A stretch of 43,187 bases of DNA from a virus, in IMG/VR virus record IMGVR_UViG_3300025759_000186, positions 1 through 43,187 of that record; one strand, written 5' to 3'. The translations under genes and the position numbers were made by a program. Numbering within the stretch: position 1 is the stretch's first letter; each line of letters starts with the position of its first letter. Shown one piece after another: positions 5,021-43,174 of this stretch. Under the pieces are notes generated by a model that saw only the letters and a program-made list of their open reading frames with translations, searched no databases and was not told where the DNA came from.

Positions 5021-5102
5021 GAAACAGACTGTTTCGAAATAAGGGGTTTACTTCCGCCGAAAAGCCGTCTAGTTTTCTGATATCAGAAACGGAGACAGAC
5101 AC
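5021..5102 (+). promoter_or_regulatory. Repeated promoter cassette, copy 1
   Basis: Dyad GAAACAGACTGTTTC (5021-5035, perfect 5-bp arms), 11 bases, -35 TTTACT (5047-5052), 17-base spacer, -10 TAGTTT (5070-5075), then leader ATCAGAAACGGAGACAGAC and ATG 5103. It shares order, spacing and leader with seven other cassettes in the window. This is the most distant copy, isolated within the structural genes. Confidence 0.85.
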
Positions 5103-5474
5103 ATGACACAATTCATCGCAAAGCGCACAGCCAAGGACGTCCCGATCTGGGACCTGTTAGACGGTGACAAGGACATCGGCGTCCTGACCGTCTTCCCGGG
5201 CGAAGGTCCGATGGCAACCGTCCACGACGAAGCCACAGGTCGCAAGACGACCATCCACAACGCCGCGAGCATCCACGAAGCTCTGGTTCGCGCGAAGGAA
5301 GCCTACTTGGATTTCTTCAATCCGATCTTTCTGGCTTGGGAAGCTGAACAGATGGAGAAGTATCAAGACGAAGATCAGATCGAAGACGAGGACGGCGAGA
5401 TCGCCCGGATGCGTCATCTGGAGAACAAGGCGGCGGCGTTCTACGACTACCACTACGGCGACGAGCCACACTGA
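5103..5474 (+). CDS. Moron-like hypothetical protein with own promoter and terminator
   Basis: 123 aa, acidic. The N-terminal half looks globular (IGVLTVFPGEGPMATVHDEA), and the C-terminal half is a Glu/Asp-rich helix (EAEQMEKYQDEDQIEDED). No recognised family. The gene sits between the tail tube and the tail chaperones, a junction where siphophages do not need an extra gene. It is bracketed by a terminator upstream, a cassette promoter and a terminator downstream. It is therefore an autonomous unit, probably expressed with the small genes at the right end rather than with the tail genes. Confidence 0.8.
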   Translation: MTQFIAKRTAKDVPIWDLLDGDKDIGVLTVFPGEGPMATVHDEATGRKTTIHNAASIHEALVRAKEAYLDFFNPIFLAWEAEQMEKYQDEDQIEDEDGEIARMRHLENKAAAFYDYHYGDEPH

Positions 5475-6776: not shown

Positions 6777-9160
6777 TGGCTCGTGAAGACATCGTGATCT
6801 CGATCCGGACTGTGGGAGCCGGAAAAGCCCGAAAGGACATCGTCGGCGTCGGAACTTCCGCGACAGCCGCCGCGAAAGGTGTCCGGCTTATGAACGCCGC
6901 GATCGGCATCTTCGCAGGGGCGCAAGTCCTTCGTGGGATCGTCTCCATGGCGGACGCCTTCACCACCATCCAGAACAGGATCAGGGTCCTCGTCGACACA
7001 GAGATCGAGCTTGTGGGCGTGACGAAAGAGCTGTTCGACATATCACAGTCGACCCGAACCAGTTTTGAGGGGACGGCTGACGTCTACGCCCGGACCGCGC
7101 TGGCGGCGAAGGAGCTGGGCGTCTCCCAAAGGCAAGTCCTCGACTTCACGAAGAGCCTGAACCAAGCGGTCGTCATCGGCGGCTCGACGGCGGCTGAAGC
7201 GACGAACGCCATGATCCAGCTGTCTCAGGGTCTCGCCTCTGGGGCGCTCCGTGGCGACGAACTCCGCTCCGTCCTCGAACAGCTCCCGGTCGTCGCCGAT
7301 GTCATCGCGAAGGAACTGAACGTCACTCGCGGAGAACTCCGCGAGATGGGCTTCCAAGGCAAGATCACCTCTGACATCATCCTCAAAGCCTTCGCGAACG
7401 CCCGGGAAGAGCTGGAAGAGCGGTTCGGGAAGACTATCCCGACGATCGCCCAAGGCTTCCAAGTTCTCCGGAACGCGACGACGCTGGCGATCGGCGAGTT
7501 CGCGACAGGCTCCGGCGTGGCTGAAGCCTTCGCCCGGACGCTGATCTTCCTCGGAGAGAACATGGACACCATCCTCCGGACAATCTCGTCTCTGGTCATC
7601 GCTCTGACCCTTCTCTCTGGGCCAGCCGTGATCGGTCGCGTGATCATCGGGATCAAGACACTGACGGCGCTGATGATCGCCAACCCCTTCGGCGCGTTCA
7701 TCGCCGCGATCTCCGCCGCGATCGGAATTCTGGTCTCCTTCGGGGACAAGATCAACATCTTCGGCTCCGGCGTCGTCACCGTCGCGGATGTGATCCGTGC
7801 GACCTTCGTCGAGGTCGGGATGATCTTCGCCCAGCTGGCAGCGATCGCCGGTGAAGCCTTCAGCTCTATTCTCGGAAGTTCCGACCAAGCTGTCGAAGGC
7901 ATGGTCAAAGGCTTCGGTGGTCTTCTCCGTATCATCGCCACGATCTGGGACGGCTTCGTCGGGATCATCGCTGGCGGTATCCTCGCGGCGGCTGTCGCAT
8001 GGGACAACTTCACGACCGGGGTCGCCAACGTCTGGGAGAAGCTGATCTCGTTCCTCGCGAACAAGTGGCGCGACTTCCTGAACCTATTCATCAAAGGCTA
8101 CAACGCCGTCGCGTCCGTCTTCGGAGGCGATAGCATCGAGCTTTTCGACGAACGGGTCGCAGAAACCCAAGGGACCAAGTTCGGCGCGACGGTCGGCGAA
8201 GGCTTCAACGCTGGCTTCAGCGCTGCGACCCAAGCGAACGACCTCCTTGATCGGATCGAGACCCGGAGCGGGGAGATCGCCGCGAAACGTGTCGAGCAAG
8301 CCGCCGCGTCGGCGGAGCAAGCCGCGAAGCTGGAGGAACTCCTGAACCGGATCGGCGAGAAGGCTCCGACCGGAGCTGGTGGTGGTTCTGGCAGCGCGAG
8401 CGAAACTGTCAACCGACTGAAGGCGCTCTACACTGAAGTCACCGGCGACCTCGATGGGCTTATCCAAAAACAGGCGGACCTGAACACCCTCTTCGAGAGT
8501 GGCGCGATCAGCGCTGAACAATTCGCCGCCGCCATGCGGAACATCAACGTCGAAGTGTCAGCTCTCGACAACACCTTCTCCGGTGGGATCGCCAACGGGA
8601 TCGACCAGATCATCGCCCGGGCGAACGACCTCGGGTCCACGATGTCAGACTTCGTCGTCGGAGCGTTCGACAAAGCCTCCGACGCTATTGTCGAGTTCGC
8701 CAAGACCGGCAAGTTCAACGTCCGGGAATTCTTCTCGGACCTCTTCGCCCAACTCCTGAAGCTCGCCACGGATCAGCTCTTCGCGTCACTCCTTGGAGGT
8801 CTCTTCCCCGGCGGTGGCGCTGGTGGTCTCTTCGGTGGCGGCGGCGGTGGTATCGGAGGTCTTTTAGGCTTCGCGACCGGCGGCACCGCCATGGTCGGCG
8901 GTAACGGTGGCACGGACAGCCAGCTCGTCGCCTTCAAGGCAACCCCCGGCGAGCGGGTCAACGTGGAGACACCAGCCCAACAACGAGCGAACGGCGGCGG
9001 CTCCCAGCCTATTATCGTCCAGCAAGCTCCCCCGAACGTCGTCGTCAACGTCGGCGGACAGGAGATCGCGGACGCTCTGTCTGGAGCGGAGGGCGACGTG
9101 TTCTTCACCTCCGCCGCTGAACGCAACAAGAAAGCGGTCAAGGGAATTCTTGGATCATGA
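6776..9160 (+). CDS. Tape measure protein
   Basis: 794 aa. Residues about 55-230 carry the tape-measure N-terminal domain pattern (ADAFTTIQNRIRVL, ELGVSQRQVLDFTKSLNQA, GALRGDELRSVLEQLP). Hydrophobic helices follow at about 260-430, then a helical region (about 470-640). The Gly-rich C-terminus (LFGGGGGGIGGLLGFATGG, then LVAFKATPGERV) resembles the end of lambda gpH. The protein sets tail length; at about 1.5 angstrom per residue, 794 aa predicts a tail near 120 nm, a rule-of-thumb inference. It starts on the upstream stop (TAATG) and overlaps the next gene by four bases. Confidence 0.9.
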   Translation: MAREDIVISIRTVGAGKARKDIVGVGTSATAAAKGVRLMNAAIGIFAGAQVLRGIVSMADAFTTIQNRIRVLVDTEIELVGVTKELFDISQSTRTSFEGTADVYARTALAAKELGVSQRQVLDFTKSLNQAVVIGGSTAAEATNAMIQLSQGLASGALRGDELRSVLEQLPVVADVIAKELNVTRGELREMGFQGKITSDIILKAFANAREELEERFGKTIPTIAQGFQVLRNATTLAIGEFATGSGVAEAFARTLIFLGENMDTILRTISSLVIALTLLSGPAVIGRVIIGIKTLTALMIANPFGAFIAAISAAIGILVSFGDKINIFGSGVVTVADVIRATFVEVGMIFAQLAAIAGEAFSSILGSSDQAVEGMVKGFGGLLRIIATIWDGFVGIIAGGILAAAVAWDNFTTGVANVWEKLISFLANKWRDFLNLFIKGYNAVASVFGGDSIELFDERVAETQGTKFGATVGEGFNAGFSAATQANDLLDRIETRSGEIAAKRVEQAAASAEQAAKLEELLNRIGEKAPTGAGGGSGSASETVNRLKALYTEVTGDLDGLIQKQADLNTLFESGAISAEQFAAAMRNINVEVSALDNTFSGGIANGIDQIIARANDLGSTMSDFVVGAFDKASDAIVEFAKTGKFNVREFFSDLFAQLLKLATDQLFASLLGGLFPGGGAGGLFGGGGGGIGGLLGFATGGTAMVGGNGGTDSQLVAFKATPGERVNVETPAQQRANGGGSQPIIVQQAPPNVVVNVGGQEIADALSGAEGDVFFTSAAERNKKAVKGILGS

Positions 9161-20794: not shown

Positions 20795-21019
20795 TCCCAA
20801 AACAGCCCAACCTCGGACAACCTTCAAACAGAGGTCGGCAGCTGTAAGCCTTTGATTTTTAATACTGAAGACAACCTCCCCAACCTCCCCAACCTTTCAA
20901 GAAGTAATAGAAATATATAAGAATTCCCAGCAATTTTAGGGATGGGAAGGTCGGGAGGTTGTCCAAGGTCGTCCCGGTTGCTTTCTCGTTTGGGCGCTTG
21001 TAAGGTATCCGGAGAACAC
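20795..21019 (+). other. AT-rich non-coding region with inverted repeats; candidate replication origin
   Basis: No gene fits here. Arms GACAACCTCCC (20870-20880) and GGGAGGTTGTC (20953-20963) are perfect inverted repeats; the similarity extends outward imperfectly to about 21 bases per arm. CAACCT units recur at 20808, 20816, 20872, 20881 and 20889. The interval between arms is markedly AT-rich (TTTCAAGAAGTAATAGAAAT, then ATATATAAGAATT). Iteron-like repeats beside an AT-rich tract, immediately before the replication genes, suggest an origin; a regulatory stem is the alternative. Confidence 0.45.
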
Positions 21020-27960: not shown

Positions 27961-28450
27961 CCGCCCGAAGCTCCTGATCTTGGGCTACGCCCGACACGGG
28001 AAGGACACGGTCGGCGAGATACTTCGCGACGAGTTCGGCTTCCGGTTCACCAGCTCTTCGGAGTTTGTGGCCCGGGAGGTCATGTGGGACAACTGGGGAT
28101 GCGCGGTCTACGACAGCTTCGAGGACATGTTCGCGGACCGAGTGAACCACCGCGTCCTCTGGATGCAGATGATCAGCGCCTACAACACGCCAGACAAGGC
28201 GAAGACAGCCCGGACGATGCTGGAGCGTGGGTTCGACATGTATGTCGGAATGAGGCGACAGGACGAGCTGGACGTGGCCCGGGAGCTGTTCGATCGGGTC
28301 ATCTGGGTCGACGCCTCCTTACGTCATCCGCCGGAGACCGGGTCGATGGACATCACCGAAGAGAGCGCGAACCCGGACTGGATCGTCTTCAACAACGGAT
28401 CGCTGGACACGCTCCGGGACAACGTCCGGAAACTCGTTTCCATTCTCTGA
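27953..28450 (+). CDS. Deoxynucleoside monophosphate kinase
   Basis: 165 aa. P-loop GYARHGKDTVGE (residues 11-22) near the N-terminus, as in phage dNMP kinases and adenylate-kinase-like proteins, followed by DEFGFRFTSSS and a lid-like basic segment (MRRQDELDVARELFDRVIWV). It would phosphorylate dNMPs, feeding the polymerase. Fits between the ribonucleotide reductase and thymidylate-synthase-like genes. Confidence 0.75.
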   Translation: MSDRPKLLILGYARHGKDTVGEILRDEFGFRFTSSSEFVAREVMWDNWGCAVYDSFEDMFADRVNHRVLWMQMISAYNTPDKAKTARTMLERGFDMYVGMRRQDELDVARELFDRVIWVDASLRHPPETGSMDITEESANPDWIVFNNGSLDTLRDNVRKLVSIL

Positions 28451-28529
28451 ACAAATTATTTCCCGGCGGGGGGTTTACATCTGCCGGGAGATAGACTATC
28501 TCTGGATCATCAGAAACGGAGATAGACCA
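28448..28529 (+). promoter_or_regulatory. Repeated promoter cassette, copy 2
   Basis: Dyad TGAACAAATTATTTC (28448-28462), 11 bases, TTTACA (28474-28479), 17-base spacer, TATCTC (28497-28502), leader ATCAGAAACGGAGATAGAC, ATG 28530. CCCGGC and GCCGGG flank the -35 as a 6-bp inverted repeat. The dyad begins in the kinase stop codon. Confidence 0.85.
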
Positions 28530-28838
28530 ATGACCACTATGACATTCAACCCCGAAAACTGGATCAACGACGAGCTGGAGCTGGTCGCCACCGACGACAC
28601 CGTGACCGTGAATGGCGAGACCCTGACCCTCGACGTCCAGCCGGTCCAGTATGACGAAGAAGGCAACACAAAGTGGGACTTCTACCTGATCGTCCTCCGC
28701 AACAGCGACGGAACCAAGATCGGTTCGATGTCGAAGTTCGGCGGCGACAAGGTCTGGGAGCTTCTGGGCTGTGGCATCTCCCGTCAACACGCCGACGCCC
28801 GGGTCCTCGCCGGGATGGTCATCGCGAACCTTTTCTAA
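28530..28838 (+). CDS. Hypothetical protein of the cassette-promoter family
   Basis: 102 aa, acidic, beta-rich N-terminal half (LVATDDTVTVNGETLTLDVQ) and helical C-terminus. No family recognised. Expressed from promoter cassette 2, separately from the upstream replication genes. Confidence 0.7.
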   Translation: MTTMTFNPENWINDELELVATDDTVTVNGETLTLDVQPVQYDEEGNTKWDFYLIVLRNSDGTKIGSMSKFGGDKVWELLGCGISRQHADARVLAGMVIANLF

Positions 28839-33013: not shown

Positions 33014-33427
33014 ATGGGAACTAGAGAGGGCCAATACTGGCGGACGGTGAAACCAGCCTTCTCGGGCTGGGACCCGCAACGGATCGAGACCCCGGACGCC
33101 GATGGTGTCCCTGACGTGAATTGCACGGTCTGCGACGTCGAACTGAAATATGTGCGGGAGTGGCCCAAGCGTCCGGACACCCCGCTCCGGCTCGATCACT
33201 ACAGCCCACAGCAAAGGGTGTGGCACAAGCGCAGATGTAAGGCTGGCGGATTGTGTTTCGTCCTGATAGGTGTCGGGAAGGAACATCTCCTGATCTGGGG
33301 AGACACCGCCGCCGATCATCTGGGGCGAGTGACAAGAATGGAGCTGATCATGCTGGCGGACGGCCACTGGGAGAGCTTCAAGGATATGAAAGGAGAGCTT
33401 CGCGATGCGATACTTGCTCGAAATTAA
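33014..33427 (+). CDS. VRR-NUC-like nuclease
   Basis: 137 aa. The core GVPDVN with Asp34 followed by DVELK with Glu43 and Lys45 is a PD-(D/E)xK site; Glu6-Tyr8 (REGQYWRTVK) and RIET with Glu25 fit the VRR-NUC-like N-terminus. The C-terminal GGLCFVLIGVGKEHLLIW completes the fold. Such nucleases may cut branched DNA during phage replication or packaging. Located between polymerase and regulator genes. Confidence 0.7.
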   Translation: MGTREGQYWRTVKPAFSGWDPQRIETPDADGVPDVNCTVCDVELKYVREWPKRPDTPLRLDHYSPQQRVWHKRRCKAGGLCFVLIGVGKEHLLIWGDTAADHLGRVTRMELIMLADGHWESFKDMKGELRDAILARN

Positions 33428-33722
33428 TCAAGGTGAATGGCTGGCGGTCAAGCGTCACAGGGACGGTCTCGATCAGGTCGAGATGGCTGATCGGCTGGGT
33501 CTGACCCGCCACCAGTATCAAGCGAAAGAAGGCAACCAGAACGGCAAGCTGAAGCGGCGTCTGTCGGACTTCGAGGCTTGCGTGATCATGCGCAACCGAT
33601 CGAAGATGTCACAGGGAGCGCTCGCGAAGGAGCTGGGTTTGTCCCGCCTCTGGGTCAACCGGATGGAAAAAGGACACGAGGATTGTCAACACCTCATTGA
33701 CTTCTGGAAGCTCCAGAAGTAA
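33405..33722 (+). CDS. Small regulator with two HTH-like segments
   Basis: 105 aa, RBS AAAGGAG at 33391-33397, overlapping the nuclease by 23 bases. Residues about 20-45 (GLDQVEMADRLGLTRHQYQA) and about 67-92 (KMSQGALAKELGLSRLWVNR) are both helix-turn-helix-like, the second a clear Cro/C1-type. Tandem HTHs in one small protein suggest a DNA-binding regulator. Its last codons form a perfect palindrome (33701-33719) inside a candidate promoter for the primase gene, consistent with autoregulation or control of the next gene. Confidence 0.7.
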   Translation: MRYLLEINQGEWLAVKRHRDGLDQVEMADRLGLTRHQYQAKEGNQNGKLKRRLSDFEACVIMRNRSKMSQGALAKELGLSRLWVNRMEKGHEDCQHLIDFWKLQK

Positions 33723-33760: not shown

Positions 33761-36046
33761 ATGAACAGCATTGAATTCTTGCAAAAATTCCGCCCCGGTG
33801 GGCCATGGACCTTGACGTTCATCGTCCCGGACGGTCGTGTCACGACGACGACCTTCTTCGAGGATCGGATCGACCAGATGGAGACCGCGATCTCCCAGCG
33901 ATCAGGTCACGAGAACATCTATTTTCAGGTCAACAGCTCCGGCGACAAGAACCTGACCAAGAAGGCGAAGAAGGAGGACATCGTCGAGGCGGAGTGGCTT
34001 CACGTCGACGTCGACCCACAGACCACGGACCCGAACCTCGTCCCGGCGGAGCGCGCGAACATCCTGAAGACGCTGAAGGAGGCGAACCCAACGCCGACCC
34101 TGATCATCGACAGCGGCGGAGGCTATCAAGCGTTCTGGCATCTCGACAAGCCGTCGACCCCAGACAGCGGAGACTGGACGGATCACGAGAGCTTCAACCG
34201 CTGGCTGGAGCTGGAATACAAGGGCGACCATTGCCACAACATCGACCGGATCATGAGGCTCCCCGGGACGATCAACATCCCGAACGCCAAGAAGCGATCG
34301 AAGGGTCGGGCCGAAGCTCCGACGGATGTCGTCCACTTTGATCACAAGCTCCGCTATGACCTCTCGAACTTCCAGAAGGCTCCCAAGATCGACGGCGGAA
34401 CAAAGGCTGACGGAGGTCGCGTCACCGTGTCTCTGTCAGGCAACCTCCCTCGGCTCGACGACGTGGGGCCGGAGCTGGAGGCTGTCGCCACGGAAGGAGA
34501 GTTCCACCCCTCCGTCCCCATGCTGATCGTCAACGGCTCCGACGTCGAGGACGGCAACCGCTGGAACGGAGACCGATCGAGAGCGACCTTCTATGTCGTT
34601 TGTGAGCTGGTCAGAGCTGGCGTCCCGGACGACTACATCGCCGCCGTGTTGCTCGACAGCACCTTGGGCATATCGGGCCACACCCTCGACCAAGGGAACC
34701 CGGAAGGCTACGTCGTCCGGCAAATCCAGAGAGCCAAGGAGACAGCGGTCCACGAGGACCTCCCAGATATGAACGATCAATACTTCGTGACGCTGGTCGG
34801 CGGGAAGCTCCGGGTCGTCGAAGAGGAACCCAACGGGGAGCTGTCCTTCATGGATCAAGGGGCGTTCGTGAACTACTTCTCGAACATCCAAGTCCACGTC
34901 GGCGACGATCAAAACGGGATGCCTATCTATAAGTCGAGGGGTAAGTGGTGGTTCAGCCACCCACAGAGGCGGTCCTACAAGAAGGTCGTCTTCGCTCCGG
35001 GAGGCGAGGTCCCGAACGATCATTACAACCTCTGGCGCGGCTTCTCCGTCGCTCCGAAGGCTGGGACAGATCACCAGCTGATCCTCGATCACATCCGGGA
35101 TGTCATCTGTTCAGGCAACGAGGAACATTTCGACTATGTCGTCAAATGGTGCGCTCGTCTGGTCCAGCACCCGGCGACCCAGTCGGAAGTCGCGCTCGTC
35201 CTCCGTGGGCGAGAGGGGACCGGGAAGAACACCTTCGTCGAGGCGATCGGCTCTCTGATGAAGCACCACTATTTTGAGACAGCCGCCTCCGAACAGGTCG
35301 TCGGGAAGTTCAACGGACACCTCCGGGACAAGGTCTTCGTCCACGCGAACGAGGCGTTCTTCGCCGGGGACAAGAAACACGAAGCGGACCTGAAGGCGCT
35401 GATCACCGACGCGAACCGGGCGTTCGAAGCGAAGGGCGTCGACATCGTCCAAGGCTCGAACTATGTCCACCTCGTGATGTCCTCGAACTCGGACTGGGTC
35501 GTCCCGGCTGGGGCGGACGCTCGCCGCTACTTCGTCCTCGACGTCTCCGACGAACGGAAACAGGACGAGAGCTACTTCGCCCGGATCAAGGACAGGTTCT
35601 ACAAGGGCGAGGGGAAAGCGAACCTTCTCCACTTCCTCCTGTCGGTCGACCTGAAGGGATGGCACGTCCGGAACGCGCCCAAGACAGAGGCGCTTCAGGA
35701 TCAGAAGAAGCGGACGTTCGACAGCCTCCGGGAGTGGCTCTTCATCAGCCTCGATCGAGCTGGCTTCGTCGAGGGCGATGACTGGCCCGGATACATCACG
35801 ACGCAACAGCTGACGAACTCCTACGTCCACTTCGCCGATCAAGCGAAGGTCAGCCGCCGTCAGACGGAGATGGGCATCGCCGAAGAGATGAAGAAGATGG
35901 GAGCGATCGGGATCAAGCGGGATGGTCGGCGAGGCTGGCAGATGCCAAAAGTCGAGACTTGTCGATCGACCTTCGATGATCTCTATGGCGGACCGTTCGA
36001 CTGGGACGACGCGGAGAACGACCCTCAACAAGAAATTCCGATTTAG
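33761..36046 (+). CDS. PrimPol-like primase-helicase
   Basis: 761 aa. The N-terminal half resembles an AEP/RepB-type primase: HVDVD (81-85) as the acidic motif, SGGGYQAFWHL (118-128) and NIDRIMRLPGTIN (160-172). The C-terminal half has a superfamily 3/D5-like ATPase with Walker A GREGTGKN (483-490), Walker B-like VFVHANEAFF (525-534) and SSNSDWVVP as sensor region. The order is as in phage primase-helicases related to NrS-1 polymerase. It should prime and unwind DNA at the fork. The second AEP motif lacks the usual His, as in several phage relatives. RBS is weak. Confidence 0.8.
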   Translation: MNSIEFLQKFRPGGPWTLTFIVPDGRVTTTTFFEDRIDQMETAISQRSGHENIYFQVNSSGDKNLTKKAKKEDIVEAEWLHVDVDPQTTDPNLVPAERANILKTLKEANPTPTLIIDSGGGYQAFWHLDKPSTPDSGDWTDHESFNRWLELEYKGDHCHNIDRIMRLPGTINIPNAKKRSKGRAEAPTDVVHFDHKLRYDLSNFQKAPKIDGGTKADGGRVTVSLSGNLPRLDDVGPELEAVATEGEFHPSVPMLIVNGSDVEDGNRWNGDRSRATFYVVCELVRAGVPDDYIAAVLLDSTLGISGHTLDQGNPEGYVVRQIQRAKETAVHEDLPDMNDQYFVTLVGGKLRVVEEEPNGELSFMDQGAFVNYFSNIQVHVGDDQNGMPIYKSRGKWWFSHPQRRSYKKVVFAPGGEVPNDHYNLWRGFSVAPKAGTDHQLILDHIRDVICSGNEEHFDYVVKWCARLVQHPATQSEVALVLRGREGTGKNTFVEAIGSLMKHHYFETAASEQVVGKFNGHLRDKVFVHANEAFFAGDKKHEADLKALITDANRAFEAKGVDIVQGSNYVHLVMSSNSDWVVPAGADARRYFVLDVSDERKQDESYFARIKDRFYKGEGKANLLHFLLSVDLKGWHVRNAPKTEALQDQKKRTFDSLREWLFISLDRAGFVEGDDWPGYITTQQLTNSYVHFADQAKVSRRQTEMGIAEEMKKMGAIGIKRDGRRGWQMPKVETCRSTFDDLYGGPFDWDDAENDPQQEIPI

Positions 36047-36130
36047 AAACGGATTATTTCCATTTTTGGGGTTTACATATGCCGCCGATGCTGTAGATTG
36101 AGGTCATCAGAAACGGAAAGGAACCAAGAC
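36046..36130 (+). promoter_or_regulatory. Repeated promoter cassette, copy 3
   Basis: Dyad GAAACGGATTATTTC (36046-36060) beginning in the primase stop codon, 11 bases, TTTACA (36072-36077), 16-base spacer, TAGATT (36094-36099), leader ATCAGAAACGGAAAGGAACC, ATG 36131. Confidence 0.85.
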
Positions 36131-36373
36131 ATGAACTTCAACAAGTGGCTCGACACCCTGATCGAAGAGAAGAACATCAACACCGACCAGATCATCGAGG
36201 TCGACGGCGACTTCGGCGTCAACATGATCCCGGTCGCGATCGTTCTCAACGCGATCAAAGCCGCTCCGCAACAGGAACGCGCCCAGATCAAGACGATCCT
36301 CGTGAAGATCGACTTCGCGAACGGCGACGTCCTCCACTTCATCCGCCACCTCGCGAAAGCGCTGGCGATCTAA
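36131..36373 (+). CDS. Hypothetical protein of the cassette-promoter family
   Basis: 80 aa, helical, mixed charge: NFNKWLDTLIEEKNINTDQI, then ATLK-free hydrophobic core NMIPVAIVLNAIKAAP and a C-terminal helix. No family recognised. Own promoter; followed by a perfect G/C hairpin and then a gene with a start-associated sequence. Confidence 0.7.
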   Translation: MNFNKWLDTLIEEKNINTDQIIEVDGDFGVNMIPVAIVLNAIKAAPQQERAQIKTILVKIDFANGDVLHFIRHLAKALAI

Positions 36374-39857: not shown

Positions 39858-40060
39858 AGGTCAAGGACATGATGGAGGCGCTCCAGAAAGCCGCCGACAA
39901 GGGCAACGGTGACGCGGAGGTCGTTTGGATCAACGGACAGGGGAAAGCGGTCCCCGTGGTCGGCTGGCAGCTTGTGACGAGCGCCCAGTGGGATCACGGA
40001 CATGACCCCGCCTCCGGGCTTGGGCAACAGCTCCGCCTCTACAGCGGGAGCCGGTTCTGA
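39854..40060 (+). CDS. Hypothetical small protein
   Basis: 68 aa, ATGA overlap with the exonuclease. KVKDMMEALQKAADKGNGDA then a beta segment (EVVWINGQGKAVPVVGWQLV). A phage-typical small alpha/beta sequence, unknown function. Stop overlaps the next ATG by one base. Confidence 0.6.
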   Translation: MKVKDMMEALQKAADKGNGDAEVVWINGQGKAVPVVGWQLVTSAQWDHGHDPASGLGQQLRLYSGSRF

Positions 40061-40299
40061 TGACTAAGGAAGAACGGATCGAGAAGCTGATCGAGAGCCT
40101 CCGGGGAACGTGTGACAGCATGACAACCAAAGCGGAGGACCTCGATCTGGATGACTTGGACGAGGCGGTCACAGGAGCGGTCGACGAGGCGATCTTCTGT
40201 TGCGCATCGTGCGGCTGGTGGTGCGAACAGGACGAAGAAGCGTCGGAGGAATACGACCTCGACGAGTGGACCTGTCGCGATTGCGCGAGCTTGGAATGA
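40060..40299 (+). CDS. Small zinc-ribbon-like protein
   Basis: 79 aa. Acidic helix N-terminus and a C-terminal Cys cluster: CCASCGWWC and TCRDC, i.e. two CxxC pairs about 25 residues apart, likely binding one zinc ion. Could be a regulator or nucleic-acid-binding adaptor. End of the operon that began at cassette 3. Confidence 0.65.
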   Translation: MTKEERIEKLIESLRGTCDSMTTKAEDLDLDDLDEAVTGAVDEAIFCCASCGWWCEQDEEASEEYDLDEWTCRDCASLE

Positions 40300-40313: not shown

Positions 40314-40399
40314 GAAACGGAGAATTTCGTCGAATAGGGGTTTACATCTGCGGGGATGGTTGATAAGTTCTAATTATCAGAAACGAAAGGAACCAAGAC
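40314..40399 (+). promoter_or_regulatory. Repeated promoter cassette, copy 4
   Basis: Dyad GAAACGGAGAATTTC (40314-40328), 12 bases, TTTACA (40341-40346), 17-base spacer, TAAGTT (40364-40369), leader ATCAGAAACGAAAGGAACC, ATG 40400. Confidence 0.83.
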
Positions 40400-40750
40400 A
40401 TGAACATCCTCGCAGACTACCCAGCCTTCATGGTCACAAGCCTCCCCGAAGGTCACGACATTCCCCTGACCGAAGACAAGGGCTACTGCCGGACCTCTCC
40501 GATCGTCCTTCGGATCGCTGGCTTCAAGAACGAGAAGTCCGGTCACGAATACCTCTCCGGCTTCGCGATCGGCGCGGACGACAAGAGCGGCGTCTGGGCA
40601 TATGGTCGCGGCTCGATGCTGACCGCCGAACGCCGCGCCAAGGAGTACCACTTCGGAGCCTCGATCGGCGACACTATCCGGATCGAGGGCGTGGACTACA
40701 TCATCCGCGAAGCCGCGAACAAGAACATCAAATTCGAGGAGGTGGCGTGA
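40400..40750 (+). CDS. Hypothetical protein of the cassette-promoter family
   Basis: 116 aa, no cysteine-rich or membrane features. Contains SGFAIGADDKSGVWAYGRG and a C-terminal beta segment IGDTIRIEGVDYIIREAANK. No family recognised. Expressed from cassette 4. A 14-codon frame (GTG 40747, ending RYQCEACR) overlaps its stop and ends at the next gene's start. Confidence 0.7.
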   Translation: MNILADYPAFMVTSLPEGHDIPLTEDKGYCRTSPIVLRIAGFKNEKSGHEYLSGFAIGADDKSGVWAYGRGSMLTAERRAKEYHFGASIGDTIRIEGVDYIIREAANKNIKFEEVA

Positions 40751-40790
40751 GCCACCCCTCCCACCGATATCAATGTGAGGCTTGCCGCTA

Positions 40791-40916
40791 ATGCTGACTT
40801 TATTGCTTCTGTTGCTGGTGCTGTTCTTGCTCCCGAGGTTCATTATTTTACTGTGCAAAGCGACATTCTCACTAATGAGAATAAGCGTCGCAGTCCTTCG
40901 GCGCTTGAAGCCATAA
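40791..40916 (+). CDS. Small hydrophobic protein, 41 aa, atypical codon use
   Basis: ATG 40791 to TAA 40914-40916: MLTLLLLLLVLFLLPRFIIL followed by a basic amphipathic end. One membrane helix. Codons TTA, TTG and CTT, ATT and TTC/TTT pattern and the local AT-richness differ from the phage norm, suggesting recent acquisition. The coding trend continues after the stop in the +1 frame (to 41010), so this may be the front half of a frameshifted gene. Confidence 0.45.
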   Translation: MLTLLLLLLVLFLLPRFIILLCKATFSLMRISVAVLRRLKP

Positions 40917-41010
40917 CCAAACCCGGGTCTGGCGCGAGAGCTGGATCATCCGGGAGCTGGACGCCCTGATCGACTGGGCTGAAGGAGAGAACACCGCGCG
41001 CCGTTTCTGA
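40909..41010 (+). pseudogene. Possible frameshifted C-terminal remnant
   Basis: Open in the +1 frame relative to the hydrophobic ORF, reading NQTRVWRESWIIRELDALID then WAEGENTARRF before TGA 41008-41010. It has phage-like codons but no start codon of its own, so it looks like the end of the 40791 gene displaced by an indel or by programmed frameshifting. Confidence 0.35.
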
Positions 41011-41028
41011 TAATCTCGAAGCGCGGTT

Positions 41029-41065
41029 GTCCACGGGGTCGAAACGTATTGTTTCCCCCGTGGAC
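41029..41065 (+). promoter_or_regulatory. Long hairpin enclosing the cassette dyad
   Basis: GTCCACGGGG (41029-41038) and CCCCGTGGAC (41056-41065) are perfect 10-bp arms, and between them lies the dyad GAAACGTATTGTTTC. A small TC bulge is the only break. It ends two bases before the -35 region of cassette 5. Could act as operator, terminator or both. Confidence 0.65.
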
Positions 41066-41123
41066 ACTTTACATCTGCCGGGAGATGGTCTATATGTAGA
41101 TCATCAGAAACGGAGATAGACAA
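41041..41123 (+). promoter_or_regulatory. Repeated promoter cassette, copy 5
   Basis: Dyad GAAACGTATTGTTTC (41041-41055), 12 bases, TTTACA (41068-41073), 17-base spacer, TATATG (41091-41096), leader ATCAGAAACGGAGATAGAC, ATG 41124. Confidence 0.87.
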
Positions 41124-41624
41124 ATGAACGCCTATACAATCCACTTCAAATTCGCCCACGAACACGTCGAAGCCACCGACACGGACATGGCTGTCATGAA
41201 AGCGGCGGAGATCATCGCCCAAGACATGACCGAAGAAGATCGCGGCGAGCTGGTGGCGATCGAGCTTCACGGCAAGAACGGGATGTCGAACTTCTTCTAC
41301 ACCGGAGCCGACCTGACCTCGGACAAGGTCGAAGAGATCGTGACCCGCAAGGAAGCCCGCCCCGCCCCGAAGAAGCTCCCAAGCCGCCGCCAGCGTGGCC
41401 TATGCCTCTCCTACTCCCACGGCGACCTGTTCGTCTCCCGCTTGGGCTACAGCTCCAGCCTGTCCTGTGCCTACCACGAAGAGGTCCTCCACCACGATCG
41501 CGGCTACCGCGACGACGTGGAGCTGGGACGCGCCGACATGAAGGTCATCGAAGAGTGGATGAACCACGAGGCGGACTACTACGAGACCAACGGCTGGGCG
41601 ACGTGGAGCGAGGTCAACGAATAA
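41124..41624 (+). CDS. Hypothetical protein of the cassette-promoter family
   Basis: 166 aa. N-terminal alpha/beta part (YTIHFKFAHEHVEATDTDMA), a Pro/Lys/Arg linker near residues 75-93 and a C-terminal His/Tyr-rich part (CAYHEEVLHHDRGYRDDVEL) with scattered aromatic residues. Two-domain look, no family recognised. Single-gene unit from cassette 5. Confidence 0.7.
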   Translation: MNAYTIHFKFAHEHVEATDTDMAVMKAAEIIAQDMTEEDRGELVAIELHGKNGMSNFFYTGADLTSDKVEEIVTRKEARPAPKKLPSRRQRGLCLSYSHGDLFVSRLGYSSSLSCAYHEEVLHHDRGYRDDVELGRADMKVIEEWMNHEADYYETNGWATWSEVNE

Positions 41625-41706
41625 GGAACAAATTGTTTCCCGGCTGGGGGTTTACATCTGCCGGGAGATGGTCTATCTATAGATCATCAGAAACGGAGAC
41701 GAGATC
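41625..41706 (+). promoter_or_regulatory. Repeated promoter cassette, copy 6
   Basis: Dyad GGAACAAATTGTTTC (41625-41639) right after the TAA, 11 bases, TTTACA (41651-41656), 17-base spacer, TATCTA (41674-41679) within palindrome ATCTATAGAT, leader ATCAGAAACGGAGAC, ATG 41707. CCCGGC/GCCGGG flank the -35. Confidence 0.88.
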
Positions 41707-42090
41707 ATGAGACACATAAAGACCATGCGCCAGCAACAACGCGAGACCAGCAACAACGCCGAAGACCCGAACAAGAACATCTGCGCCCTGAAGGTCGCTC
41801 AAGCTCTGGGCGTGGATCATACCCAGCGTTACTTCCACACGATCGAGGACGTCAAGCGCGCCGCTGGTCGTCGGTTCTCGGTCCGCTCCGTGAAGAGCTA
41901 CGTCAAAAGCAACACCGCCGGAGGCGCTCGCAAGGCGATGCCGTCGATCGGCGCTGTGGCCTTCATCGTCTGGGTCCCGGGCCACGTCCTCCTGATGTCC
42001 GCCGACGGGAAGACCATCGTCGACACCGCTCCCCGCAAGGCGGACCGCCGGAAGCTCTTGGGCGTCTGGGGATTGTATCCGAAGGGATGA
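41707..42090 (+). CDS. Papain-like cysteine protease candidate
   Basis: 127 aa. A basic N-terminal 25 residues, then KNICALKVAQALG (Cys26 at a helix start), a basic middle (RRFSVRSVKSYVKSN), and VPGHVLLMSADGKTIVDTAP with His93 and Asp106. The order Cys-helix, His in a strand, Asp/Asn in the next strand is that of papain-like peptidases and related amidases. If active, a small early protease or deamidase aimed at a host protein is possible. The call is pattern-based and could be wrong. Single-gene unit from cassette 6. Confidence 0.45.
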   Translation: MRHIKTMRQQQRETSNNAEDPNKNICALKVAQALGVDHTQRYFHTIEDVKRAAGRRFSVRSVKSYVKSNTAGGARKAMPSIGAVAFIVWVPGHVLLMSADGKTIVDTAPRKADRRKLLGVWGLYPKG

Positions 42091-42171
42091 CAAATTGTTT
42101 CCCGGTGGAGGGTTTACATCTGCCGGGAGATGGTCTATCTATAGATCATCAGAAACGGAAAGGAACACGAC
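42087..42171 (+). promoter_or_regulatory. Repeated promoter cassette, copy 7
   Basis: Dyad ATGACAAATTGTTTC (42087-42101), 11 bases, TTTACA (42113-42118), 17-base spacer, TATCTA (42136-42141) within ATCTATAGAT, leader ATCAGAAACGGAAAGGAAC, ATG 42172. Confidence 0.88.
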
Positions 42172-42309
42172 ATGAAACTCTGGCAGATCGAAACACTCAA
42201 AGGCGCGAAGCTCCGGGTCCGGGGCGATGACTACTCCCAAGCCAAAGCCCGCGCGGAGTGGATCATGGCTCCGAACGATCGCCCGATCAACATCGTCCTG
42301 ATCGACTAA
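42172..42309 (+). CDS. Small protein of the cassette-promoter family, 45 aa
   Basis: Encodes KLWQIETLKGAKLRVRGDDY then SQAKARAEWIMAPND and IVLID. The pattern of a strand, a turn, a helix and a strand suggests a compact fold. A full promoter cassette and RBS precede this short frame, which makes it convincing. Followed by a perfect hairpin. Confidence 0.7.
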   Translation: MKLWQIETLKGAKLRVRGDDYSQAKARAEWIMAPNDRPINIVLID

Positions 42310-42318
42310 CAGAAACAA

Positions 42319-42339
42319 GGGAGGGGATGGTCCCCTCCC
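42319..42339 (+). terminator. Intergenic hairpin (cassette type)
   Basis: Perfect 9-bp stem GGGAGGGGA/TCCCCTCCC around TGG, between a cassette gene and a gene with a start-associated sequence. No U-tract. Same placement as the hairpin at 36380-36401. Confidence 0.55.
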
Positions 42340-42346
42340 ACCTCCC

Positions 42347-42360
42347 GAAAGGAGCCTCCC
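42347..42360 (+). promoter_or_regulatory. Start-associated sequence, copy 8 (GAAAGGAGCCTCCC)
   Basis: Abuts ATG 42361; CCTCCC replaces CCTGACC, a diverged copy. Confidence 0.5.
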
Positions 42361-42621
42361 ATGGCCCACTCTCTTCCCCTCTCTGGTTCCGCTCTCCGCG
42401 AGACCTTCGACGTCCGTGACCTCGTCGCCATGACGACAGGCGAGAAGCCGTGGATGACGATCTCTGACGCTCGTGTGGCGGCTCGTGAGACGTTCGCCAA
42501 TGTCAAGGGGATCATCCGGGTCTGGTCGATCGTCCTCCGTGCCGATGACGAGGTCCAGCTGGTCTCGATCGGTCCTCGTGGCGGCGTCATCGTGGAGTGG
42601 GTCTTCGGACCCGCTCGCTGA
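42361..42621 (+). CDS. Hypothetical protein
   Basis: 86 aa. N-terminal polar segment (LPLSGSALRETFDVRDLVAM), a helix (ISDARVAARETFANVKGI) and a final beta hairpin (VQLVSIGPRGGVIVEWVFG). No family recognised. Linked to the cassette-7 gene through the hairpin and start-associated sequence. Confidence 0.65.
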   Translation: MAHSLPLSGSALRETFDVRDLVAMTTGEKPWMTISDARVAARETFANVKGIIRVWSIVLRADDEVQLVSIGPRGGVIVEWVFGPAR

Positions 42622-42625
42622 TCCC

Positions 42626-42838
42626 ATGGGCGTCCACGACAAGACCTGTCGGGAGTGTGGCGCGGACATCCGCGACCTCTTCCCACAAGCCGCCTTATGC
42701 GAACCCTGCTACCAGAAGCGCCAAGACTGGAGAGCGGAACAGGAGGTCCTCGATCGACATGAGCGGAAGGAGGCGTTCATGGCTCTCCCGGACGAGGACA
42801 GGTGGGAGATGGTCTGGAACCGATTGTTCTCGGGTTGA
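42626..42838 (+). CDS. Small zinc-finger-like protein
   Basis: 70 aa from ATG 42626, five bases after the previous stop; no clear RBS, so translation is probably coupled. CRECGAD and CEPCYQ form two CxxC pairs 14 residues apart, followed by a charged helix (WRAEQEVLDRHERKEAFMAL). Probably one zinc site; DNA- or protein-binding role possible. The second such protein in this region. Confidence 0.55.
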   Translation: MGVHDKTCRECGADIRDLFPQAALCEPCYQKRQDWRAEQEVLDRHERKEAFMALPDEDRWEMVWNRLFSG

Positions 42839-42922
42839 GAACCTATTATTTCGAATATAGGGGTTTACATCTGCCGGGAGATGATCTATCTATAGGTCAT
42901 CAGAAACGGAAAGGAACACAAC
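42838..42922 (+). promoter_or_regulatory. Repeated promoter cassette, copy 8
   Basis: Dyad AGAACCTATTATTTC (42838-42852) starting in the TGA, 11 bases, TTTACA (42864-42869), 17-base spacer, TATCTA (42887-42892), leader ATCAGAAACGGAAAGGAAC, ATG 42923. Confidence 0.87.
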
Positions 42923-43174
42923 ATGGACCGCCTCTTCAAGAACAAGAACTGGACCGAACGCCGCTACGACGTCACGAACGTCGTCTACCAGATGATCCCA
43001 GCTGGCAAGAACCCGATCGACTGGGGAACCGGCGCGGAGAGCGACAACTGGGTCGAGGTCGAGATCGACGCCGACGAGCTGGAGCTTCATGAACTGATGG
43101 GGACCTCGATCGTCCCGGCTGGCTTCAGCGAAATCGGACGGATCGACGGTCGCCAGTTCTACGGACACCTCTAA
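42923..43174 (+). CDS. Hypothetical protein of the cassette-promoter family
   Basis: 83 aa, acidic. Basic first 14 residues (DRLFKNKNWTERR), then YDVTNVVYQMIPAGKNP and an acidic strand (NWVEVEIDADELELHELMG). No family recognised. Followed by TAATCAACCCGGGGAG, the left part of the same hairpin seen at 36371-36386, so the cassette pattern probably goes on beyond the window. Confidence 0.7.
   Translation: MDRLFKNKNWTERRYDVTNVVYQMIPAGKNPIDWGTGAESDNWVEVEIDADELELHELMGTSIVPAGFSEIGRIDGRQFYGHL

Follow-up and report, generated by a model that had tools for sequence, protein, structure and literature searches.

The closest described counterpart of the element studied here is found in Pseudomonas phage YuA, whose GenBank record (NC_010116) labels five repeats, at 7722, 10500, 22639, 29058 and 31098, as 'putative sigma70 promoter requiring phage-encoded cofactor'. 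These have the form CTTTACTTCTTCGG, about 9 nucleotides (nt), CACTATA, and a sixth, unmarked copy is present at 2878. Two further systems resemble parts of this arrangement. In the middle promoters of phage T4 (PMC6755090), a MotA box near -30 takes the place of the -35 element, and MotA and AsiA bring about sigma appropriation. In the Cluster K mycobacteriophages (PMC3203893), a start-associated sequence (SAS) with a Shine-Dalgarno core is located just before the starts of many non-structural genes, and about half of the copies carry an extra upstream inverted repeat (extended SAS, ESAS). Here, we analyzed a stretch of viral DNA of 43,187 nt (IMG/VR record IMGVR_UViG_3300025759_000186, positions 1 to 43,187; hereafter, the window), in which an earlier sequence-only reading had reported eight promoter cassettes, each placed before a small gene. 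We consider it rather probable that these cassettes represent one phage promoter class of a diverged YuA type, which is probably assisted by a cofactor, carries a start-associated leader and has been copied as a fixed unit.

Results

A putative promoter box and a leader at fixed spacing

We searched the window with a composite pattern consisting of TTTACN (at most 1 mismatch), 26-30 nt and ATCAGAAACGG (at most 1 mismatch), with 100 dinucleotide shuffles as the control. This revealed 8 forward and 0 reverse matches, compared with a mean of 0.01 and a maximum of 1 in the shuffles, and all eight cassettes were present where they had been reported. A long core, allowing up to 3 mismatches, had 5 matches in the window and 0 in the shuffles. 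The cassette layout is a box, TTTACATCTGCCG, followed by 9-10 nt, the -10 element, exactly 6 nt, the leader ATCAGAAACGG and then a small gene (45-166 amino acids (aa)) in the same orientation. The -35 hexamer is TTTACA in seven window copies and TTTACT in one, and the spacer to the -10 is 17 nt in seven and 16 nt in one, in agreement with the sequence-only reading. The -10, which that reading placed near TATCTA, has exactly this sequence in 3/8 copies, the others having TAGTTT, TATCTC, TAGATT, TAAGTT and TATATG. The leader is ATCAGAAACGG in 7/8 copies and ATCAGAAACGA in the remaining one.

A second record, IMGVR_UViG_3300006916_000005 (G001; 56,278 nt), matches the window at 99.995-100% and holds three further cassettes, so that the reported family of eight, complete for the window, comprises at least 11 members. 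The gap of 6 nt between the -10 and the leader is constant in 8/8 window copies and in 11/11 overall. The cassettes occupy intergenic gaps of 79-138 nt, except for one of 373 nt. As had been described, five of the eight are located in the last 3 kb of the window. A density of nearly one cassette per gene applies to part of that region, since three gene starts lie between 42087 and 42838, and it does not extend beyond it: there are 29 predicted gene starts between 5021 and 28448.

Conservation was assessed in five diverged copies (5021, 36046, 40314, G001 17859 and G001 9259) together with 41041, which represents the near-identical group; this six-copy set is not fully independent, as 36046 and G001 9259 agree at 41/47 columns. 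The 13-nt box had a mean pairwise identity of 90%, the 11-nt leader one of 97% and the -10 one of 64%, whereas the remaining spacer reached 25% and the discriminator between the -10 and the leader 33%. That the box and the leader are kept while the spacer is random indicates that selection acts on separate elements held at a fixed spacing. The copies at 28448, 41041, 41625, 42087, 42838 and G001 9299 are mutually identical at 41-47/47 columns and are probably recent copies. The description of the cassettes as near-identical fits this part of the set but not the whole, in which pairwise identities range from 27 to 47 over 47 aligned columns. G001 9259, in turn, looks like a mosaic of cassettes, as its upstream 30 nt are identical to those of 5021 and its -10 region is as in 36046. 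The sequence-only reading had proposed either spread as units or a shared regulator holding the copies together. The data support both spread, from the recent copies and a mosaic, and a common constraint, from the retention of mainly box, -10 and leader in diverged copies.

The fused promoter-plus-leader unit seems particular to this lineage. Neither the exact 20-nt core nor the composite box-plus-leader pattern had a match in viral contigs beyond the same phage, a DNA similarity search of one cassette against named phages gave just four weak records (E 0.5-6), and an Rfam scan gave nothing at the gathering threshold.

A YuA-type box in relatives

The sequence-only reading had not recognized the form of the cassettes; the YuA record, however, already annotates such repeats, and other relatives carry related boxes. 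Sequence and synteny together support the view that the cassettes are a diverged, fused form of the YuA-type repeated promoter family, which is marked by several copies per genome, on the strand of the genes, of a box resembling TTTAC[AT]T[CT]T[GT]C[CG]G, then about 10 nt and a TA...T -10. G001 has 11 such copies. Like the YuA repeats, the cassettes have a repeated box starting with TTTAC, 17 nt to the -10, and lie on the sense strand before early genes. They differ in that the box is TTTACTTCTTCGG in YuA and TTTACATCTGCCG here, the YuA -10 is mostly better (TATACT), and YuA has 6 copies compared with 11 here, some of which are near-identical.

The consensus TTTACWTCTKCSGG, allowing 1 mismatch, matches 9/11 copies of this phage. 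Scanning relatives with the motif had been suggested by the sequence-only reading. Of 33 records scanned, 12 contained a total of 51 matches, compared with 5 for the reversed pattern; nine of the 12 have promoter-like copies, and 21/33 records, including Pam3, RcSimone-Hastad and RDJL3, have no match. The nine are this phage, the contig of L038, YuA, Bordetella phage CN1 and its duplicate, Sphaerotilus phage SN1, Stenotrophomonas phage Sonora and two metagenomic phages; the other three of the 12 contain single matches lacking promoter form. PaMx11 and Ab18 have one chance match each and no promoter box. L038, the nearest relative by primase (53-54% identity), carries six copies of TTTACTTYTG, intermediate between the YuA form and that of this phage. 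We also sought repeat families of their own in eleven motif-lacking relatives and found some in Ab18, PaMx11, ZQG1 and Donnerlittchen, using an insensitive method that missed the six G003/L038 boxes.

Over 52 primase loci, a relaxed box pattern matched 71 sites on the forward and 14 on the reverse strand, with 9.0 expected on each. These counts are not independent, since many of the loci are closely related; moreover, 8 of the forward sites come from the second record of this phage, and these phages supplied part of the consensus. Other lineages carry the box variants TTTACTTTTCCGG and TTGTCATTTGCC. A box is found within 450 nt past the primase stop in 19/29 box-bearing loci (1.96 expected) and in 16/17 TTTAC-type loci. 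By eye, boxes also follow the ribonucleotide reductase and exonuclease genes as in YuA, with two small genes intervening in this phage. The gene behind the post-primase box differs: the phrog_6004 product of this phage shows no alignment to that of L041, and the families matched there in YuA-like loci are different ones.

Three other repeats were observed in these records. The ZQG1 record (L169-L171) has a separate family of six copies around CATTATAAGGGG, which looks like another lineage-specific promoter set. L072 contains five copies of another cassette (2671, 4734, 12780, 15582 and 16562) with a TTGCGTTCTGTC-like box, most of them with the leader AGAAAAGGAT. In phage Sonora (L093), paired direct repeats of CCGTTCGTC (36338, 36841, 38925 and 44835) lie upstream of promoter boxes and are perhaps activator sites.

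The leader as a translation-start element

Copies of the motif AGAAANGGA number 15 in PaMx11, 12 each in CN1 and Sonora, and 10 each in YuA, Ab18, Pam3 and SN1, the last in 40.0 of its 61.9 kb. In those seven phages, 78/79 copies have within the next 18 nt a start codon that opens onto 30 open codons; the same is true of 99/108 forward sites in 12 relatives, compared with 2099/5866 control GGA sites. Matches on the other strand and of the reversed pattern, summed over the 12 relatives, amount to 11. This regular placement before start codons, with few opposite-strand or reversed matches, points to a translation-start element. Judging from these counts, the leader is a family-wide start-associated element, AGAAANGGAG, which relatives use with or without a promoter: AGAAANGGA is paired with a box in 4/10 sites in YuA, 4/12 in CN1, 5/12 in Sonora and 0/15 in PaMx11. 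In this phage, 8/8 window sites are in cassettes (seven leaders, and one at a cassette's dyad). Here the distance from box to AGAAANGGA is 37-38 nt in six scan-paired sites, while in YuA AGAAANGGA, where present, lies 44-67 nt after the box start and there is no fixed leader.

The sequence-only reading had likened the cassettes to the mycobacteriophage SAS. The likeness applies to a short conserved element with a Shine-Dalgarno core just before the start codons of many genes. The motif itself is different (GGGATAGGAGCCC there, AGAAANGGAG here), the phages are unrelated and the element is here joined to a -35/-10 promoter; the 13-nt SAS consensus GGGATAGGAGCCC is not matched by the leader of this phage (ATCAGAAACGG/A). 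In the accessible parts of the literature searched, including PMC9437464, PMC7472734, PMC4482731 and PMC13288487, we found no description of the promoter class or of the AGAAANGGAG element; the original YuA paper may discuss them.

A candidate cofactor

The best candidate for a cofactor, and no more than a candidate, is a tandem helix-turn-helix (HTH) protein of the XRE type (Table 1). Its YuA counterpart, gp25, is annotated as 'putative repressor'. A homologue occupies the pre-primase position in 40/52 primase loci, some loci being too short to reveal it, and in an alignment of 29 sequences E11, Y38, R63, R65 and E88 are invariant. The AlphaFold model has a mean predicted local distance difference test (pLDDT) score of 93. 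In its second half, it is similar to XRE-type HTH domains, for example that of Aca2 (best Z 6.1, 1.9 A, 53 residues); these fold matches are general to XRE/HTH proteins and may reflect a common arrangement only. The residue in the second recognition helix, Leu/Met versus another, mostly aromatic one, tracks TTTAC versus TTG-type boxes in 19/21 loci. The comparison covers 21 of 43 tree rows, namely those with both a readable second HTH and enough boxes; it is suggestive of coevolution between HTH and box but not significant.

A DksA-like zinc finger was considered as the cofactor and rejected: that of phage LKO4 (phrog_54) adjoins a box, but the window protein at 40060-40299 gave no match. In LKO4 (L185 1293-1484), the DksA-like gene is located just before a promoter box. 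In the window, the genes at 42626-42838 and 40060-40299, each before a cassette, encode small proteins with paired CxxC motifs. Of the 86 predicted genes, 40 were compared with Pfam and/or PHROGs, and none of these matched MotA or AsiA. CtrA-type sites (TTAA-N7-TTAA, as in alphaproteobacterial phage promoters) number 0 in the window at up to 1 mismatch.

Genome context

From its gene content and similarities, the window is a single contig of a YuA-like siphovirus. The ends of the longer record overlap by about 120 nt, which indicates a genome of about 56.2 kb, of which the window is about 77%. The approximately 13 kb outside the window hold the terminase, portal and scaffold genes and the three further cassettes. 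Identity of the terminase is 50-53% with 16/18 compared relatives, and the early block is of YuA type, with helicase, Pam3-like proteins, ribonucleotide reductase, DNA polymerase A, HTH protein and primase. A primase search of genome contigs gave 7 loci at 37-41% identity.

As a separate observation, the window (20829-20985) and L016 (16226-16373, minus strand) have in common a 158-column segment, 74% identical, with GACAACCTCCCCAACC and its inverted counterpart. It sits in two long intergenic regions, before helicase and before terminase genes. In YuA, a pair of repeats lies close to the two promoters, annotated as being of medium activity, that precede the helicase and terminase genes.

Table 1. 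Cassettes and associated genes (window coordinates unless G001 is given; gene sizes in aa)
Feature	Position	Strand	Dyad	Box from	-10	Leader from	Downstream gene	Remarks
Cassette 1	5021..5102	+	5021-5035	5047	5070-5075	5082	5103-5474 (123)	inferred +1 also from 5082
Cassette 2	28448..28529	+		28474	28497-28502	28509	28530-28838 (102)	
Cassette 3	36046..36130	+	36046-36060	36072	36094-36099	36106	36131-36373 (80, phrog_6004)	16-nt spacer; directly 3' of primase gene
Cassette 4	40314..40399	+	40314-40328	40341	40364-40369	40376	40400-40750 (116)	leader ATCAGAAACGA
Cassette 5	41041..41123	+	41041-41055	41068	41091-41096	41103	41124-41624 (166)	dyad within strong hairpin
Cassette 6	41625..41706	+		41651	41674-41679	41686	41707-42090 (127)	
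Cassette 7	42087..42171	+		42113	42136-42141	42148	42172-42309 (45)	
Cassette 8	42838..42922	+		42864	42887-42892	42899	42923-43174 (83)	
Extra cassettes	G001 17859, 9259, 9299	-, -, +						outside window; total at least 11
Tandem HTH (XRE-type) protein	33405..33722	+						105 aa; directly upstream of primase; positional counterpart of YuA gp25
DNA primase	33761..36046	+						anchor gene for post-primase promoter box

Discussion

Our model suggests that host RNA polymerase with its main sigma would be recruited by the -10 hexamer, 16-17 nt past the TTTACA of the extended box TTTACATCTGCCG, with probable help from an AT-rich patch, located around -55 to -47, as an UP (upstream promoter) element. 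Conservation extends past the -35 hexamer into TCTGCCG, the latter half of the box (at about -29 to -23), so that this part is probably read by a phage-made cofactor. The most likely reader would be the tandem-HTH protein, switching on the whole set together after entry. From promoter geometry, we infer that the transcript would start at the A of ATCAGAAACGG; it would then open with the start-associated AGAAANGGA(G), which may aid translation of the small accessory gene. The promoter would have become joined to its leader as one fixed unit in this lineage, a unit that has been copied and recombined between intergenic sites. Such a class would resemble the T4 middle promoters in combining a -10 element with a box near -30 that is specific to the phage; it would differ in that the candidate reader is an XRE-type tandem HTH and the box starts with a -35-like TTTAC.

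Several observations weigh against this model. TTTACA is near TTGACA, so the host sigma alone might be enough. The most AT-rich 8-nt window begins 17-23 nt before the -35 hexamer, which we take to be the place of the distal UP element, in this phage and in 7/9 relative sets, but the patch is off that position in Sonora and L038. The match between helix and box amounts to 1-2 independent contrasts on the primase tree, with L039 and L058 discordant and the classes set post hoc. Finally, the tandem-HTH gene is also present in PaMx11 and Ab18, both of which lack the promoter box.

If the host sigma were indeed enough, the cassettes would be plain constitutive early promoters, their conservation reflecting a strong -35 context, an UP element and recent copying. 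We regard this as somewhat unlikely. The good -10 spacing, the AT patch at the UP position and the near-identity of several copies, hence recent, all accord with it; what speaks for a cofactor instead is that TCTGCCG is kept in diverged copies while the adjoining spacer is random, that the same half-box position holds related letters in other lineages (TTTACTTCTTCGG, TTTACTTTTCCGG, TTGTCATTTGCC) and that the YuA annotation, although its label is putative, calls for one. A second alternative, compatible with a cofactor-assisted promoter class, assigns the regulon to the dyad GAAAC-N5-GTTTC, which would be the operator for a repressor or activator made by the phage. Here 5/11 copies score at least 5 of 6 pairs (0.45 versus 0.05 in shuffles), and the divergent pair G001 9259 and 9299 has one dyad in common. 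The sequence-only reading had listed the dyad among the parts common to all eight copies, but an exact GAAAC-N5-RTTTC is found in just 4/8 window copies, the others being imperfect, and it does not define the family: among YuA-like relatives, CN1 and, slightly, L038 are the only ones with a mean score above that of shuffles, and a score of at least 5 occurs in CN1 alone (1/7 sites). On sequence evidence, then, the dyad is enriched in this phage and not in its YuA-like relatives, which have the AT-rich patch in common instead, and we find an operator reading of the whole set improbable. The dyad may nevertheless have a role of its own, because the dyad-TTTAC layout recurs in two unrelated AT-rich contigs. 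Outside this phage, the dyad-plus-TTTAC pattern gave 8 loci in viral contigs, six of them without a cassette on inspection, while L030 and L033 (27% GC, sample 3300007960) show the order dyad, 11 nt, TTTAC, 17 nt, -10, ATG. L009 was rejected as a chance match. At E 1e-3, the L030 and L033 proteins had none in common with this phage except thymidylate synthase in L030. Two of the three unit copies in L033 have TTGACA and no exact dyad, which counts against the operator. In its own right, the repeated promoter-like cassette of these contigs lies at L033 1901, 4127 and 4643 and at L030 2332 (reverse complement coordinates), with the GAAAC-N5-RTTTC dyad before TTTACTT in L030 and one L033 copy.

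That the cassettes are terminator-promoter boundaries, with a hairpin just before the -35 stopping upstream transcription, appears very unlikely. Strong hairpins do adjoin the box at 5047, 41068, CN1 29171 and L038 15501, and phage LKO4 has 'terminator' and 'promoter' annotated at one spot; a terminator hairpin as a common upstream feature was nevertheless rejected, as z is at most -3 at just 5/61 sites and the mean z is -0.56 versus -0.33 at random window positions. We give hardly any credence to a mobile or selfish repeat lacking a regulatory role: the copies have spread and seem to recombine, yet 8/8 window copies lie directly upstream of a sense-oriented gene and the diverged copies retain mainly the promoter and leader columns.

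Returning to the cofactor-assisted promoter class, a broader scheme is conceivable but doubtful, namely that YuA-like siphoviruses have a conserved regulon resembling sigma appropriation and run by the tandem-HTH protein, with box variants tracking its recognition helix and a family-wide AGAAANGGAG, and that promoter and leader were fused here as a portable docking port for interchangeable host-takeover genes. With the present analysis, an overlooked database note on one Pseudomonas phage becomes a promoter class traceable over several phage lineages, with a testable candidate regulator, and the promoter element is told apart from the translation-start element, which relatives use separately. 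Between this phage and YuA-like loci, the post-primase promoter site is constant while the gene behind it varies. Consequently, the cassettes may serve as a guide to short putative host-takeover genes.

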